DNA of 39,967 nucleotides, taken from Candidatus Amesbacteria bacterium (GTDB taxonomy: Bacteria; Patescibacteriota; Microgenomatia; CAZETR01; Amesbacteraceae). Shown one piece after another: positions 31,521 to 39,967 of the stretch. A program made the translations under genes and the position numbers. Position 1 is the first letter of the stretch; every line of letters starts with the position of its first letter. The notes beneath the pieces are model-generated. The model was not told the origin of the DNA, ran no database searches, and saw nothing but the letters and a program-made list of their open reading frames with translations. Where the stretch lies: assembly GCA_016219445.1 (NCBI GenBank), contig JACRNA010000021.1, forward strand, positions 1-39,967, written 5' to 3'.

Positions 31521-32039
31521 ATGTTTAAATTTAAAAAAGGATTTACACTGATTGAACTTTTGGTGGTCATTTCAGTCATTGCAGTCCTTGCGGTGGCCGT
31601 ATTGTCATCAATTAATCCAGTCGAGCAAATCAATAAAGCCAAAGATACAGCATCAAAATCTGACGCTTCTGAAATGTTGAATGCGGTAGAAAGATACTAT
31701 GCTACATTTGGTTGTTATCCCTGGGAAGCAACTAATGGAGCGAGTCCAAATAAAAAGTGTACTACTCCATACGTATATACCACTCAAGCATCAACAGTAA
31801 TTGGCAGCCTTAATGCAAGCGTGCTACAAGAACTGGCTGATAAGAATGAGATAAAAACTCAGTTACAGACTAGACTGATTGCGCAAACTGATGCCACGAA
31901 AAAGAACCAGTTAATATTAACTGGCGATGCTGGCCAATTGGTTCATGTCTGTTTTTTACCATCATCGAAAACCTTTATTGCTCAAGCTAATGGTGTAGCT
32001 GACGGAACAGCCGGAACAACACATGTTTGTGTACCATGA
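31521..32039 (+). CDS. Type IV pilin/major pseudopilin
   Basis: MFKFKKGFTLIELLVVISVIAVLAVAVLSSINPVEQINKAKD prepilin N-terminus. Confidence 0.9.
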   Translation: MFKFKKGFTLIELLVVISVIAVLAVAVLSSINPVEQINKAKDTASKSDASEMLNAVERYYATFGCYPWEATNGASPNKKCTTPYVYTTQASTVIGSLNASVLQELADKNEIKTQLQTRLIAQTDATKKNQLILTGDAGQLVHVCFLPSSKTFIAQANGVADGTAGTTHVCVP

Positions 32040-32800
32040 TGAATATTATGATATTTATCATAGGACTTATCGCGGGGAGTGTGGCGAATGCAATTATTTA
32101 TCGCCTGCCCCGCGATGTTTCGTGGTATAAAGGCAGATCATTTTGTCCTGAGTGTAAACACAGCCTAAATATTTATCGCCTGCCCCGCGATGTTTCGTGG
32201 TATAAAGGCAGATCATTTTGTCCTGAGTGTAAACACAGCCTAAATCTCTATGACCTAGTGCCTATTGCCTCTTATTTGTTATTGGGTGGCAAATGCCGTT
32301 ATTGCCAATCCCCTATCCCAATACGATATTTGTTGGTGGAGTTGTTTTTGGGGGCGGCCTTTGCTGTAAGTTACTTAAGTAATTTAGGTTTCTTAAGTTA
32401 TTTTATGATTTGGATTACAACAGTGATTGCGGTGATGGACTGGGAGACGATGCTGGTTTCCGATTGGCTTGTAGCGATTTGGACAGTGATAGTGATAGTG
32501 AGCGGTGAAGTTGGTATTCTTGGTGGTTTACTTGGATTTGCGCTTATTGGCGGAATATGGCTAGTTACAAAAAAGAGAGCGATGGGAGCGGGAGATATTG
32601 GAATTGCGGTAGTCTTGGGACTGTGGCTTGGGTACCCAAAAATAATAAATGCCCTGTGGCTGGCTTTTGTCATTGGTGGAATATACGGGGCTTATTTGCT
32701 ATTGAGTAAAAAAGCTAAATTAAAAACCGCTGTCCCATTTGGCCCATTTTTGATTCTTGGCGGGTGGATAGCGTATACTCTTAATTATGGGTTTTTCTAA
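32030..32800 (+). CDS. pilD: Prepilin peptidase with internal tandem duplication
   Basis: FCPECKHSLN zinc motif twice, LYDLVPIASYLLLGGKCRYC, AMGAGDIGIAVVLGLWLGY. Confidence 0.92.
   Translation, partial: CTMMNIMIFIIGLIAGSVANAIIYRLPRDVSWYKGRSFCPECKHSLNIYRLPRDVSWYKGRSFCPECKHSLNLYDLVPIASYLLLGGKCRYCQSPIPIRYLLVELFLGAAFAVSYLSNLGFLSYFMIWITTVIAVMDWETMLVSDWLVAIWTVIVIVSGEVGILGGLLGFALIGGIWLVTKKRAMGAGDIGIAVVLGLWLGYPKIINALWLAFVIGGIYGAYLLLSKKAKLKTAVPFGPFLILGGWIAYTLNYGFF
32095..32245 (+). repeat. Perfect tandem duplication, 75-bp period, within pilD
   Basis: Copies of TATTTATCGCCTGCCCCGCGATGTTTCGTGG...CACAGCCTAAAT, with no mismatches. Confidence 0.97.
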
Positions 32801-34810: not shown

Positions 34811-35899
34811 CTATGGTGTAAGCATGCTTTTGTAGGCGTCTATTACATCGTAAATAGTGAAATTCCAATCTCTGTTTTTAAGTACAAATTTTCTGCCACT
34901 CTCTATCGTGGATCTGTATTTGTTTGGATTACTAATTATTCTATTAATTAATCTGGGATATTTAATTATGTTGTCCTCGACTGTTAAAAGTTCCTTTATT
35001 TCATTTTCCAAACCTTCAATTCCAATACTGGTTGATATTGTAGGTATTCCAGCTGCTAGATACTCTAGGATCTTAATTCTGGTTCCAGACCCCTCAAGAA
35101 CAGGACATAAAGCAACAGTTGCCGAATCATATAACTGACCAAGTTCTGCAATCTCACCTAAAAATACTACATTGGAGGGAACTGCAAGCCCTTTTTGTAG
35201 TGGGGAGTTTAAAGGACCTGCAATTAAAAATCGCACATCTGGGTAACGACTTATCACTAATGGGGCAATAGTTTTACATATAAGTCTGACTGCGTTCTCG
35301 TTGGGTTTATATTTTAAGTTTCCAACAAAAATTATGTTTTTGCCGTCTCTTAATAATTTGAAATTGATTTCTTTGGCGCTGATCGAACCGCGGTACACTG
35401 TCATTTTTTGATTTGAGATCCCTATGTCTGCTAATTCTTGTTTATCAGCCTCTGATCTAACTAGTAGCAAATCAGCAATTTCAGAAGCGTTTCTTTCTAT
35501 CCTTACTGTATTATTAATTGATTCTCTATCAACCCCAAGCCTAGATTGTAAAATGTGATTGACGTTGTGTACTTCCCAACAAACCTTGGCAATATCCTTA
35601 AGGTATTTCCCTTGAATTAAGGTTGCCTCAGCACTATCAAATTGGCAAACCTGAATTTTGTTATTAATTACCAATTTTCGCATGAGATTAGAATTTTGAT
35701 AGAAGTCTCTTGATTTTATGAAAATCGTGGTAAACTTTTCTTTCTTATACCATTCTGGGTTGTCCCATCCCCTGAAACATCTAAATAAAAAAACGTCCTC
35801 GCCCTTATCGATTAAAGCATTCATCATGTTGTAAATCGAATTTGATCCACCTTGGTGTGGAGGAAGAAACTGACCATCACGAAAAAATCCAATTCTCAT
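34811..35899 (-). CDS. Glycosyltransferase, GT4-like
   Basis: NIIFVGNLKYKPNENAVRLI...VVFLGEIAELGQLYDSATVALCPVLEGSGTRIKILEYLAAGIPTISTSIGIEGL. Confidence 0.88.
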   Translation of the reverse strand: MRIGFFRDGQFLPPHQGGSNSIYNMMNALIDKGEDVFLFRCFRGWDNPEWYKKEKFTTIFIKSRDFYQNSNLMRKLVINNKIQVCQFDSAEATLIQGKYLKDIAKVCWEVHNVNHILQSRLGVDRESINNTVRIERNASEIADLLLVRSEADKQELADIGISNQKMTVYRGSISAKEINFKLLRDGKNIIFVGNLKYKPNENAVRLICKTIAPLVISRYPDVRFLIAGPLNSPLQKGLAVPSNVVFLGEIAELGQLYDSATVALCPVLEGSGTRIKILEYLAAGIPTISTSIGIEGLENEIKELLTVEDNIIKYPRLINRIISNPNKYRSTIESGRKFVLKNRDWNFTIYDVIDAYKSMLTP

Positions 35900-36483
35900 A
35901 CTCGTTTATTAATTTCATTTAAAATCAGTCTGTAAACAGCTTCTCTATTTTTTGCTACTTTAATCACCACCACAGCTGCACCAGGTTCAATCTTAGAAAA
36001 GAACCATGAGTAGTATTTTTTCACTTCAAGAAGTGTCTTGGGATTTGACCAGAAATCATTCGAGACCTTTCGGCCTTTCAACTTTAAAGACTCTTGAGGT
36101 GTTGCATTCAAATAGAAGTACAAATCTGCCTTGATTAGTCGTGAATTAAGAGAGTCGCTGTACCACTTCAGGGCCTTTGTATAAGAATCATCGTTTGATA
36201 ATTTCGATGTTACATAGTTGTAAGCAAGAGTAGAAGGGTAATACCTATCTATTACTATGGGTGTTTGAGGAAATTTATGACTGTACTTAGCTGCCAATGC
36301 GCTTTTTGTTTCGTCATTTAAAAAATACAACTCCTCCTTGTTTACTGAGGTTAATTTATTCTTTTCGGCTGTAAAAAAGCTTGCTGTTCTTTGAGGAACA
36401 TATTTATATCCCATGTCATCTCTTAGTCTTTGGCAAATGGTTGTTTTTCCAGTACCTGGTAACCCTTCAATGGCTATAATCAT
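35896..36483 (-). CDS. P-loop (deoxy)nucleoside/thymidylate kinase-like protein
   Basis: MIIAIEGLPGTGKTTICQRL Walker A; IVIDRYYPSTLAYN DRY motif. Confidence 0.78.
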   Translation of the reverse strand: MIIAIEGLPGTGKTTICQRLRDDMGYKYVPQRTASFFTAEKNKLTSVNKEELYFLNDETKSALAAKYSHKFPQTPIVIDRYYPSTLAYNYVTSKLSNDDSYTKALKWYSDSLNSRLIKADLYFYLNATPQESLKLKGRKVSNDFWSNPKTLLEVKKYYSWFFSKIEPGAAVVVIKVAKNREAVYRLILNEINKRV

Positions 36484-36484
36484 A

Positions 36485-37486
36485 TTAATTGTGAGTTAGA
36501 GTTCCCTTATAGCAAGTAACATACTGGTCTGTTTTTTTAAAAAGTTGATATTTATTCCCAGGAACAGTTACTTTCAGTAACTGGTCTAGCCAGTATGGAA
36601 TTACTGGAACATAACTTTCTGATAACAGATCTTTTCCCAAAAGATAGAATATGTTTTCACCAAGGATCAATGAAAGTCTGGCGATTTCAAATGAATCAAC
36701 GTTAACTTTATTGTAGATGAATGCACCTCCGACTTCATACTGGTTCTTGCTGTCAAATCTTTTAGACAAGTATTCACCTGTCTTTGTAGAATAGGTTGAA
36801 ACTTCTATGGTTGAACTAGGTTTAACTAGTTTTGAAATTATTTCAAGAAAATCCTTTGGAGTATCAAAAAAGTCAACAACATTATTAGTTATTATTAGGT
36901 CAAATTTTCCAATGTTTTTAATACTAGAGATGTCAGAGATAACAATTTTATTTGGCAATTTAAATTTCTGTTTTTCAAACGATTCTATATCGAATCCTTT
37001 AGGAGAGATTATCATTGAAAAGTGATCGTTCACCAGATTTGAATTGAATACTTTCTGAAAAATTCTAGATGCATTCTTGATTGATTGGCCACTAAAATTC
37101 AAAAATTCATTTATTGCTTGCTTATACTCACTCTCTGAGCAAGAAGTTTGAGTTTTATATTGGCCTTTTTCACTTAAAAACTTATCAGTTAGCAAGTTCT
37201 TAAAAATTTGTTTAGAGCCTAAACTACGACTTAGAAGATCACAAATATATAACTGTAATATTGCAGCTAGAGGATTTTTCTCTATAACTGTCACGTCTAA
37301 CCCTTTTCCAGACAAATATGATCCATATAGTACTCCACCAACCACTAATATTTTAGGCTTAATGATTTTTTTCAAGATTGAATCTAGCCACCTTTTGTCG
37401 TGATTTGGGAGAAAGTACACTCTACCTGGAGAATATCGTAAAGACTTTTTTGTAAGGTAGTCTAATAGTTTTTGTTGTCTATTCAT
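36485..37486 (-). CDS. Rossmann-fold, SAM-methyltransferase-like protein
   Basis: PKILVVGGVLYGSYLSGKGLDVTVIEKNPLA; FDLIITNNVVDFFDTPKDFLEIISKLVKPSSTIEVSTYS. Confidence 0.5.
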   Translation of the reverse strand: MNRQQKLLDYLTKKSLRYSPGRVYFLPNHDKRWLDSILKKIIKPKILVVGGVLYGSYLSGKGLDVTVIEKNPLAAILQLYICDLLSRSLGSKQIFKNLLTDKFLSEKGQYKTQTSCSESEYKQAINEFLNFSGQSIKNASRIFQKVFNSNLVNDHFSMIISPKGFDIESFEKQKFKLPNKIVISDISSIKNIGKFDLIITNNVVDFFDTPKDFLEIISKLVKPSSTIEVSTYSTKTGEYLSKRFDSKNQYEVGGAFIYNKVNVDSFEIARLSLILGENIFYLLGKDLLSESYVPVIPYWLDQLLKVTVPGNKYQLFKKTDQYVTCYKGTLTHN

Positions 37487-37970
37487 TATTCAATATCCTA
37501 CCTATAAAATAACTCCAGTCTCTTTCAGCTTCTTCGGTTGAAGAAGAGGCATGAATTCCGTTATATCTGTACTCTTTTCCATGCGGATCATCACCAGTAG
37601 AAGCTTTAATGGCTTCCCAGAATGACTCATCAAAATAATAATTAGCTTTAATCCAGCCTCGGAGACCTATATTCAAGTGTGTTTTACCAATAATATGATC
37701 GCTACGAACGACAGAAACGGCGTCATTCCCCTCAATTAAAAAAATGTCTACAGGTCCGCAAGTAACTTGTCTAAGAAGCTTCCCGGTCTCAAACGACTCA
37801 TCACCAATTTTGTCAGCATATATAACTTGTACGTCAGCTTCAGTTAAAACTAGTGTATTAAAGGCAACAACCGTTAATCCCTCTGAACGGCAACTTTCAA
37901 CAAATTTCTCTGTCATGCCTACTCTTTTACCCTCAGGCTTAATTATCACTACCGTTTTTTCTTTTAGCAT
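37479..37970 (-). CDS. Nucleoside diphosphate kinase-like protein
   Basis: KTVVIIKPEGKRVGM; YNGIHASSSTEEAERD matches the NxxH(G/A)S-S catalytic motif. Confidence 0.78.
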   Translation of the reverse strand: MLKEKTVVIIKPEGKRVGMTEKFVESCRSEGLTVVAFNTLVLTEADVQVIYADKIGDESFETGKLLRQVTCGPVDIFLIEGNDAVSVVRSDHIIGKTHLNIGLRGWIKANYYFDESFWEAIKASTGDDPHGKEYRYNGIHASSSTEEAERDWSYFIGRILNNE

Positions 37971-37991
37971 ATGTTTACGGCAGGATTAGTA

Positions 37992-38648
37992 TTAATTGAA
38001 TATTCCTGAATTCTCCTTATACAGCTTCACAAAAAAGTCGTTTGTTCTCATAAATCCATTATTAGCAATCCTCTTTGTGGTCTCAAACCACAGTGATTTA
38101 AGAGTCTTTAACCTACTTGCCTTTCCTTCGATTTTCCACCACTCAAGAGCATCAGAGAAGCTCATATTGGCAAGTGCGTCATAGGTAAATGTTCTCCATA
38201 TCTGTAAATACCCAAAATTGTCTAACTCGTCTGCATCTTGGATTGCCTTAACTTCGAGAAGTGTCGGAAGGTCTATATGTGTTTCCTGAATTATAGAAAT
38301 GACCTTATTGATAAACTCTTTCCCCAATAAATCGAACGCATCTTTACCTAACACCTCAAGAAACATTTGTTCCGAAACTAGATGATGGTTTTTATTACCT
38401 TCTGACTTATAGTCAATTTCCCCTGATTCCACTACTGCCTTGATCTTTCCAATATCATGAAACAGTGCCGCTACAAATAATGCGTCATGATCGACCTTGA
38501 GCTTTTCCTTCCTTGCTATTATCTCAGAAAATCTTGCAACCCTCATGCCATGAAAAAACCTATGCTCCTTACCCCCACCTTTCTCAAAAGAACCCTCAAA
38601 AGACTCTTTCAATATACTTTTTAGCTTTGTTTTAAACGCTTTTTGCAT
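37992..38648 (-). CDS. HD-domain phosphohydrolase
   Basis: HRFFHGMRVARFSEIIA...ALFVAALFHDIGKIKAVVE...IQDADELDNFG. Confidence 0.8.
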   Translation of the reverse strand: MQKAFKTKLKSILKESFEGSFEKGGGKEHRFFHGMRVARFSEIIARKEKLKVDHDALFVAALFHDIGKIKAVVESGEIDYKSEGNKNHHLVSEQMFLEVLGKDAFDLLGKEFINKVISIIQETHIDLPTLLEVKAIQDADELDNFGYLQIWRTFTYDALANMSFSDALEWWKIEGKASRLKTLKSLWFETTKRIANNGFMRTNDFFVKLYKENSGIFN

Positions 38649-38656
38649 TTGGAATT

Positions 38657-38714
38657 ACTACTACAAGTAGTTGCTAATATTATACCATTTGGTATACTGT
38701 GCATATAGATGCAC
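38657..38714. promoter_or_regulatory. Divergent promoter/operator with three inverted repeats
   Basis: ACTACT-ACA-AGTAGT (38657-38671); TATACCA-TT-TGGTATA (38681-38696), overlapping TATACT (+, 38693-38698) and TATAAT (-, 38679-38684); GTGCAT-ATAG-ATGCAC (38699-38714). Confidence 0.7.
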
Positions 38715-38716
38715 AT

Positions 38717-39289
38717 ATGAAATTTCATTTTGGTGGTTCATCACTAGGATCAAAGAAGTATAAAGACGATTACTTTTTGATATGTAAGTTAATTAAAAAG
38801 CAAGGCCACAGTATTCTTCATGACTGGCTTGGCAAGACGGGAGAAAATAAAGAAAACATGTATAAAAAAACAGCTGAAGCAATTAGAGCGGCTGATGGGG
38901 TTATCTTAGAAGGTACAATTTCGGCTGTTGCTATAGGACAACAACTAACTTTGGCACTCGATAGTAATAAACCTACCCTCATTTTAATTCATCTTGAAGC
39001 TGGCGAAGGACCAGTTGTAAGCGGATCTTTTAGTGATCCAGCAAAACGAAATCTTTTGTACATTGAAAGATACACTCAATCGAACCTGGAACAAAAATTA
39101 GATGGATTTTTTAAGTCTTTGGCTCAGAAACATGGATTAACCCGAATAAATTTAGTTTTAGATAGAACGATAGACAACTATTTAGAATGGTCTGCGTTCC
39201 AAAAAAAGAAGAGTAAATCTCAAATAATCAGAGATGCCATGCAAAAAGAGATCGATCAGGATTTAGATTGGAAAAAAAGATCAACATGA
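38717..39289 (+). CDS. Nucleoside 2-deoxyribosyltransferase-like domain fused to C-terminal ribbon-helix-helix domain
   Basis: MKFHFGGSSLG...ENMYKKTAEAIRAADGVILEGTISAVAIGQQLTLALDSNKPTLIL; then RINLVLDRTIDNYLEWSAFQKKKSKSQIIRDAMQKEI. Confidence 0.68.
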   Translation: MKFHFGGSSLGSKKYKDDYFLICKLIKKQGHSILHDWLGKTGENKENMYKKTAEAIRAADGVILEGTISAVAIGQQLTLALDSNKPTLILIHLEAGEGPVVSGSFSDPAKRNLLYIERYTQSNLEQKLDGFFKSLAQKHGLTRINLVLDRTIDNYLEWSAFQKKKSKSQIIRDAMQKEIDQDLDWKKRST

Positions 39290-39837
39290 TTAGCAACTTA
39301 ACCATGATCGCCGTAAGACCAGAAGAGGTTTGGTTGTCATGGTTAAAATCCGAATGGGATTCATCAAGATTTGACCATGTTAGGGACACGATTATTGATC
39401 CCTTTAAAAATGACGAGATTGTTTTAAAAACATTAAGATTAGAAGGGAAAAGACATTTTTTAATAGACAAAATACCCGATGATACTACTTGGTACAAATG
39501 TAATATTAATTCTCATGACTTAAAGTGGTCATCAATTATTCCATCAAAAGAGTGGACTGAACGTTTTCCAGATTCAATAATGCTTGGAAATGCCGTCACA
39601 AAATTAAAATTAGACAAAAATCTTCACAATAAGATTAATCTAATAATAGGCAACGAGCATAAGACAAATTTCGAGTTGGTACTACTATCAAAAACGGGCA
39701 GCGATTTTTACACGATTTTGGAGGGTAATCACCGGGCCTTGGCTCTAATGAAAATCGCAAACAAAGTTATTGATGTGTACGTTGGATTTAGTCCAAATAT
39801 GGACAAATCTGAATGGTATTCTAAAAAATATGTATAA
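39286..39837 (+). CDS. ParB/sulfiredoxin-like hypothetical protein
   Basis: FYTILEGNHRALALMKIANKVIDVYVG resembles ParB-N-like DGNHR motifs; ATGA overlap with upstream gene. Confidence 0.45.
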   Translation: MISNLTMIAVRPEEVWLSWLKSEWDSSRFDHVRDTIIDPFKNDEIVLKTLRLEGKRHFLIDKIPDDTTWYKCNINSHDLKWSSIIPSKEWTERFPDSIMLGNAVTKLKLDKNLHNKINLIIGNEHKTNFELVLLSKTGSDFYTILEGNHRALALMKIANKVIDVYVGFSPNMDKSEWYSKKYV

Positions 39838-39967
39838 ATATTACGAGCCATTTGGTCACCACATTTGGGGAAAAGATATAGGTTCGACATGGCTAAGCTT
39901 TGTTAGGGCCGTGCTTGAACATGGTGATATCACCTATGATGAACGCAGGCAAAGGAAGTCTATTCAA
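39830..39967 (+). CDS. Thymidylate synthase-family-like protein, N-terminal fragment (truncated by window end)
   Basis: MYKYYEPFGHHIWGKDIGSTWLSFVRAVLEHGDITYDERRQRKSIQ; pattern xIgxaWLxxxxxVLexG...; 8-nt overlap with upstream ORF; not in the ORF track. Confidence 0.5.
   Translation, partial: MYKYYEPFGHHIWGKDIGSTWLSFVRAVLEHGDITYDERRQRKSIQ

Follow-up and report, generated by a model that had tools for sequence, protein, structure and literature searches.

The divergent island at the right-hand end of the window is read here, with a probability of about one half, as one copy of a sporadic, co-inherited gene cassette that makes a modified pyrimidine deoxynucleotide. The window is the entire contig C16 (39,967 nt) of a draft genome of 810 kb. 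What was computed is the joint conservation of the genes, their concordant divergence, catalytic motifs that are intact in most of the parts, and the cytosine- and deoxy-type residues carried by the thymidylate synthase (TS) of related cassettes.

Genes of the island and their surroundings

Eight open reading frames were confirmed in the island, which covers positions 34811–39967 (Table 1). On the minus strand, the computed junctions amount to −4 nt between the glycosyltransferase (GT4) and kinase genes, +1 nt between kinase and methyltransferase-like gene, −8 nt between the latter and the nucleoside-diphosphate kinase (NDK) gene, and +21 nt between NDK and HD. The HD and deoxyribosyltransferase-like (DRT) genes diverge from a 50-nt spacer, and the plus-strand junctions are −4 nt (DRT/ParB-like) and −8 nt (ParB-like/TS). 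The divergent arrangement with 4- and 8-nt overlaps on both strands, which the first-pass annotation had described, is thus borne out by the positions of the reading frames and the computed junctions. To the left of the island, pilin and type IV pilus genes follow one another. A prepilin-peptidase-like reading frame in the window (32027–32800, plus strand) repeats about 24 residues of its Cys-rich part in tandem and in frame (NIYRLPRDVSWYKGRSFCPECKHSL).

Table 1. Features of the divergent island, with the basis of each assignment
Position	Strand	Feature	Basis
34811..35899	-	GT-B/GT4 glycosyltransferase (cassette core)	Pfam 2.4e-21
35896..36483	-	thymidylate-kinase/deoxynucleoside-kinase (dNK)-like nucleoside-monophosphate kinase (cassette core)	Pfam thymidylate kinase 1e-8, dNK 1.9e-8; PHROG 761 1.3e-15
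36485..37486	-	predicted class I SAM-dependent methyltransferase with insertion (MT333, 333 aa; cassette core, most specific marker)	fold search
37479..37970	-	NDK paralogue	Pfam 1.7e-17; catalytic His motif NGIH present
37992..38648	-	HD-domain phosphohydrolase (cassette core)	Pfam 2.1e-11; metal ligands H..HD..D intact
38699..39289 (ATG at 38717)	+	nucleoside-deoxyribosyltransferase-like protein with C-terminal ribbon-helix-helix (DRT-RHH), accessory or neighbour	weak RHH match (NCBIfam 0.0029) and Glu-containing motif
39286..39837	+	ParB/Srx-like protein	EGNHRA motif
39830..39967	+	TS-like gene, N-terminal 46 codons	ended by contig end

The kinase retains its P-loop and a DR(Y/N)Y motif. 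Since the same genome encodes a separate canonical thymidylate kinase (TMK, contig C47) and a second NDK (contig C17), the cassette kinase and NDK are paralogues. The nearest relatives of the GT4 are polysaccharide glycosyltransferases, and it resembles WbnH and stp1. A distant GT4 elsewhere (L080, 1540–4317) stands beside a nucleoside deoxyribosyltransferase gene and one that we read as VUT/queuosine-transporter-like.

For the 333-aa protein, previously described as Rossmann- or methyltransferase-like, Pfam gave weak methyltransferase matches under the curated cut-off. The fold search of 36485–37486 returned a class I SAM methyltransferase fold, with OvsM as the top PDB match (1e-5 with Foldseek, the query being a model at pLDDT 61) followed by related small-molecule methyltransferases. 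MT333 is thus predicted, from a model of modest confidence, to be a class I SAM methyltransferase with an insertion.

The plus-strand neighbours behave differently, as neither the DRT-RHH nor the ParB-like protein is part of the conserved set. The DRT-RHH protein, which has no Pfam match and whose DRT-like fold we take to belong to the general fold class of MilB, was ruled out as a core part of the cassette because its relatives mostly stand alone, including a second copy in the same genome. This second copy (L007 1483–2046, contig C24) stands by itself beside a LysM/M23 peptidase gene. One homologue adjoins a TS gene in another genome, G103. The basis of the ParB call is a single motif of the type I-(D/E)-G-(N/T)-H-R-A, common to two distant homologues that both lie outside cassettes. 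The protein has no Pfam match, a query of the genome's contigs gave nothing, and its predicted structure was a poor model with no significant fold match. When the 14-genome family was searched with the DRT-like, ParB-like and 333-aa proteins, other relatives were found for the DRT-like protein only.

A cassette shared by four loci

The same order of HD, MT333, kinase and GT4 genes forms an operon in two other genomes of the Microgenomates class, G211 and G155 (families f43 and f15). The G155 operon (WFSR01, Candidatus Microgenomates) begins farther upstream, with genes for a 355-aa protein of sulfotransferase-like appearance in our own reading (no Pfam match), a relative of NDK, Ham1 (2.5e-29) and TS (5.6e-15). 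Scanning with the GT4 alignment found both loci again and brought up a fourth, L079, on a contig binned as Thaumarchaeota, which carries HAD, TS, Ham1, MT333, kinase and GT4 genes on mixed strands; the stretch from TS through Ham1, methyltransferase and TMK to GT4 spans about 4 kb. The bin label may be wrong, and the other genes of the contig, when examined, neither upheld nor overturned it. Because the genes of L079 lie on mixed strands, their linkage is not merely that of one inherited operon.

Methyltransferase, kinase and GT4 occur together in all four loci. HD is found in three, TS in three (counting the window fragment), and Ham1 and NDK in two each. The expectation that the neighbours are conserved together therefore holds for this set and fails for the DRT-RHH and ParB-like genes. 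The window GT4 is 43–44 % identical to its counterparts in G211 and G155 and 37 % to that of L079, with a kinase gene adjoining each, while MT333 is 28–34 % identical to the homologues of the three loci. The window HD protein shares 49–51 % of its residues with cassette HDs, a search having returned close relatives (50–52 %) in two other families of the class, and the window NDK shares only 22 % with that of G155. Pairwise identities rank the loci identically for GT4, kinase, MT333 and HD, a concordance which suggests that the set was probably inherited as a unit.

The cassette is rare and sporadically distributed. In scans of 380 genomes of the phylum and 374 of the class, full-length MT333 was found only in the window genome, G155 and G211 (3 of the 374 class genomes), and it is absent from a genome of the same genus, G007. 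A defence system was also considered and set aside, PADLOC giving weak matches to the kinase and HD proteins only. The glycosyltransferase and Rossmann genes might, on the first-pass annotation's own caveat, have belonged to a surface-polysaccharide cluster; this is not so, as they lie beside the kinase in all four loci and pilins flank the window copy. Their constant place next to the kinase, together with the conservation of the cassette, favours a nucleotide-modifying pathway.

Thymidylate synthase of the cassette

The reading of the last gene of the window as a TS was in part sustained: homologous cassettes, in G155 and L079, do carry a TS, but the 46 codons of the window are too short to type. 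Direct support for calling the fragment TS-like is thin (a match to the G103 TS over 28 aa at 36 % identity, E=0.002), and the cassette relatives make the better case. The only other TS match in the window genome lies on contig C13 (L127, nt ~200–718) and is Asp-type. C13 opens (L127 1–718) with about 200 nt of an unrelated ABC-transporter gene joined to this truncated TS, and its start is a probable assembly breakpoint. In register, the C16 fragment stops where the C13 TS starts, and pilus-like genes follow on C13. That the C13 TS continues the window gene is plausible, not proven, and the argument below is based mainly on the TSs of the relatives rather than on C13.

In this superfamily, Asp at T4 position 179 is linked to cytosine and Asn to uracil, Ser at MilA position 176 to deoxyribose and Ala to ribose, and an Asp or Glu three residues before the catalytic Cys to hydroxymethylation through water activation (PMC5175136, PMC6400193). 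The TSs of G155, L079, G162 and C13 all have the catalytic Cys, Asp in the T4 Asp179 column, where thymidylate synthases of the ThyA type have Asn (177/179), and Ser in the MilA Ala176 column. The cassette TSs of the relatives are thus predicted to be cytosine- and deoxy-specific. Three residues before the Cys, G155, L079 and G162 have His and C13 has Tyr in place of the Asp or Glu of dCMP hydroxymethylases; with His there instead of Asp, hydroxymethylation is not predicted for the cassette TS. The best match of the L079 TS among solved structures is the CMP 5-hydroxymethylase MilA (1.5e-12). However, the Ala176 and Lys133 pair that marks ribose preference in MilA/BcmA is broken by the Ser at 176, and the Lys at 133 is also found in ordinary CPR TSs.

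In comparison, the usual combination in ordinary CPR TSs at these three places (179, 176 and three before the Cys) is Asn, Ser and Asp, one divergent copy having Ser at the last, and fused CPR TSs have Asn at 179. Most of the phage TS-type enzymes compared, including T4 gp42, have Asp, Ser and Asp, with one of six carrying Asn at 179 instead. Tree reconstruction placed the cassette TSs among cellular CPR TSs, apart from the phage enzymes (100/99), the five not being resolved as one clade. A phage-derived cassette is rejected for the TS by this tree. Given the Asp, Ser and His residues and the cellular branching, neither a phage-type dCMP hydroxymethylase nor an ordinary TS fits.

Proposed pathway and competing readings

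The best reading is a cellular route to a C5-modified deoxycytidine nucleotide that would later be methylated and glycosylated. The TS-superfamily enzyme would put a one-carbon group on C5 of dCMP, and the TMK-like kinase and the NDK paralogue would phosphorylate the product further, to the di- or triphosphate. HD hydrolases, joined by Ham1 in other copies, may remove competing or unwanted nucleotides, and the SAM methyltransferase and GT4 would attach a methyl group and a sugar, either to the product itself or to a polymer carrying it. The substrate in this genome, the order of the steps and the final destination of the product are what we infer. The modified deoxycytidine nucleotide itself is common to a DNA and to a small-molecule destination, and we put it at roughly even odds.

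A small-molecule destination is a tentative possibility. The C5-modified (deoxy)cytidine monophosphate from the TS-like enzyme would then lose its phosphate or be trimmed down to the base, and methylation and glycosylation would turn it into a nucleoside antibiotic or antivitamin for secretion, on the model of mildiomycin and bacimethrin. Among solved structures MilA matches the cassette TS best, the MilA/BcmA clusters share with the cassette the cytosine-type Asp and the combination of TS and methyltransferase, and bacimethrin synthesis combines a TS and a methyltransferase with a step of the glycosyl-transferase type (PMC12345177). The modelled MT333 fold appears nearest to small-molecule N-methyltransferases, and a DRT-like gene is the immediate neighbour of TS in G103 and is separated from it by a single gene in the window. 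However, release of a base needs neither of the kinases present in the cassette, Ser replaces the Ala176 of MilA/BcmA, and the cassettes have no dedicated exporter. The DRT-RHH gene lies outside the conserved core, and a TS paired with a MilB-type nucleosidase is not a conserved feature of the cassettes.

An ordinary cluster for dNTP salvage or housecleaning is unlikely, even though the class does contain a genuine one (L130, 1277–6351), where a TS-domain protein of about 500 aa is clustered with HAD, HD, dNK, a DRT-TMK fusion and Tdk. This canonical CPR cluster has the nearest TS branch and has HD and TMK nearby, but its TS keeps Asn in the 179 column and it lacks GT4 and MT333. Salvage would call for an Asn-type TS, or for ThyX with a single TMK; the window's own genome has the Asp-type TS of C13 and a canonical TMK elsewhere, and the TMK and NDK of the cassette are paralogues beside canonical copies. 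The genomes of G155 and G211 encode ThyX, which in G155 coexists with the Asp-type TS, and G211, like the window genome, has a separate canonical TMK, so housekeeping does not fall to these cassette enzymes alone. In G211, which has the core operon and ThyX, no TS match was found (the search is taken as covering G000–G261, and the genome is 89 % complete).

The hypermodification reading, which the first-pass annotation had put forward as an inference, survives as a nucleotide-modifying pathway but not for DNA specifically: the TS of the relatives is without the hydroxymethylase Asp, one cassette has no detectable TS, and small-molecule pathways use similar parts. The resemblance is to T4-type cytosine hypermodification (gp42 dCMP hydroxymethylase, dNMP kinase, dCTPase and DNA glucosyltransferases), with which the cassette shares a cytosine-type Asp TS-superfamily enzyme, an NMP kinase, nucleotide hydrolases and a GT-B glycosyltransferase. 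However, the cassette is on cellular contigs, its TS branches with cellular TSs and has His for the hydroxymethylase Asp, a GT4 stands in place of the T4 DNA glycosyltransferases, and the SAM methyltransferase is additional. Alignments of MT333 and GT4 found no match in viral contigs, nor did MT333 in phages, where GT4 gave two weak partial matches only. Viral contigs matched the TS at 24–25 % only, and a viral TMK-like match (L173) is without any other cassette gene. That the cell builds a cytosine derivative bearing a sugar and a methyl group into its own DNA through a complete pre-replicative pathway, its TS having gained cytosine specificity independently of phages, is decidedly unlikely.

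Very unlikely are nucleotide-sugar or surface-glycan genes, with TMK and NDK supplying dTDP-sugars to the GT4 and the nucleotide genes incidental, since the likeness of the GT4 to polysaccharide enzymes, the Asp-type TS of G162 within a surface-polysaccharide cluster and the NTase-NDK, GT2, HD and GT4 genes of G055 are set against dTDP-sugar enzymes recognised in none of the four methyltransferase-bearing cassettes, the flanks of the window copy, which hold no glycan genes, and an Asp-type TS that would have no role there. At L128 (3833–12679), an Asp-type TS adjoins a CCA-like nucleotidyltransferase and a HAD gene within a sulfatase/ABC-exporter polysaccharide cluster. At L070 (7433–12339), an NDK fused to a PolyA-polymerase-head nucleotidyltransferase is followed by GT2, HD and GT4 genes.

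Viruses and antibiotic producers are the best-known users of pathways that make modified cytosine nucleotides. Patescibacteria are commonly portrayed as pared-down scavengers. No paper on such a pathway in Patescibacteria was found in the part of the literature covered. If the cellular deoxycytidine pathway proposed here is correct, modified deoxynucleotides would be made outside phages and antibiotic producers, by way of a TS lineage that pairs the cytosine-type Asp with an unusual His. The question is testable, since the small size and solubility of the TS, kinase and GT4 proteins make them open to direct assay.
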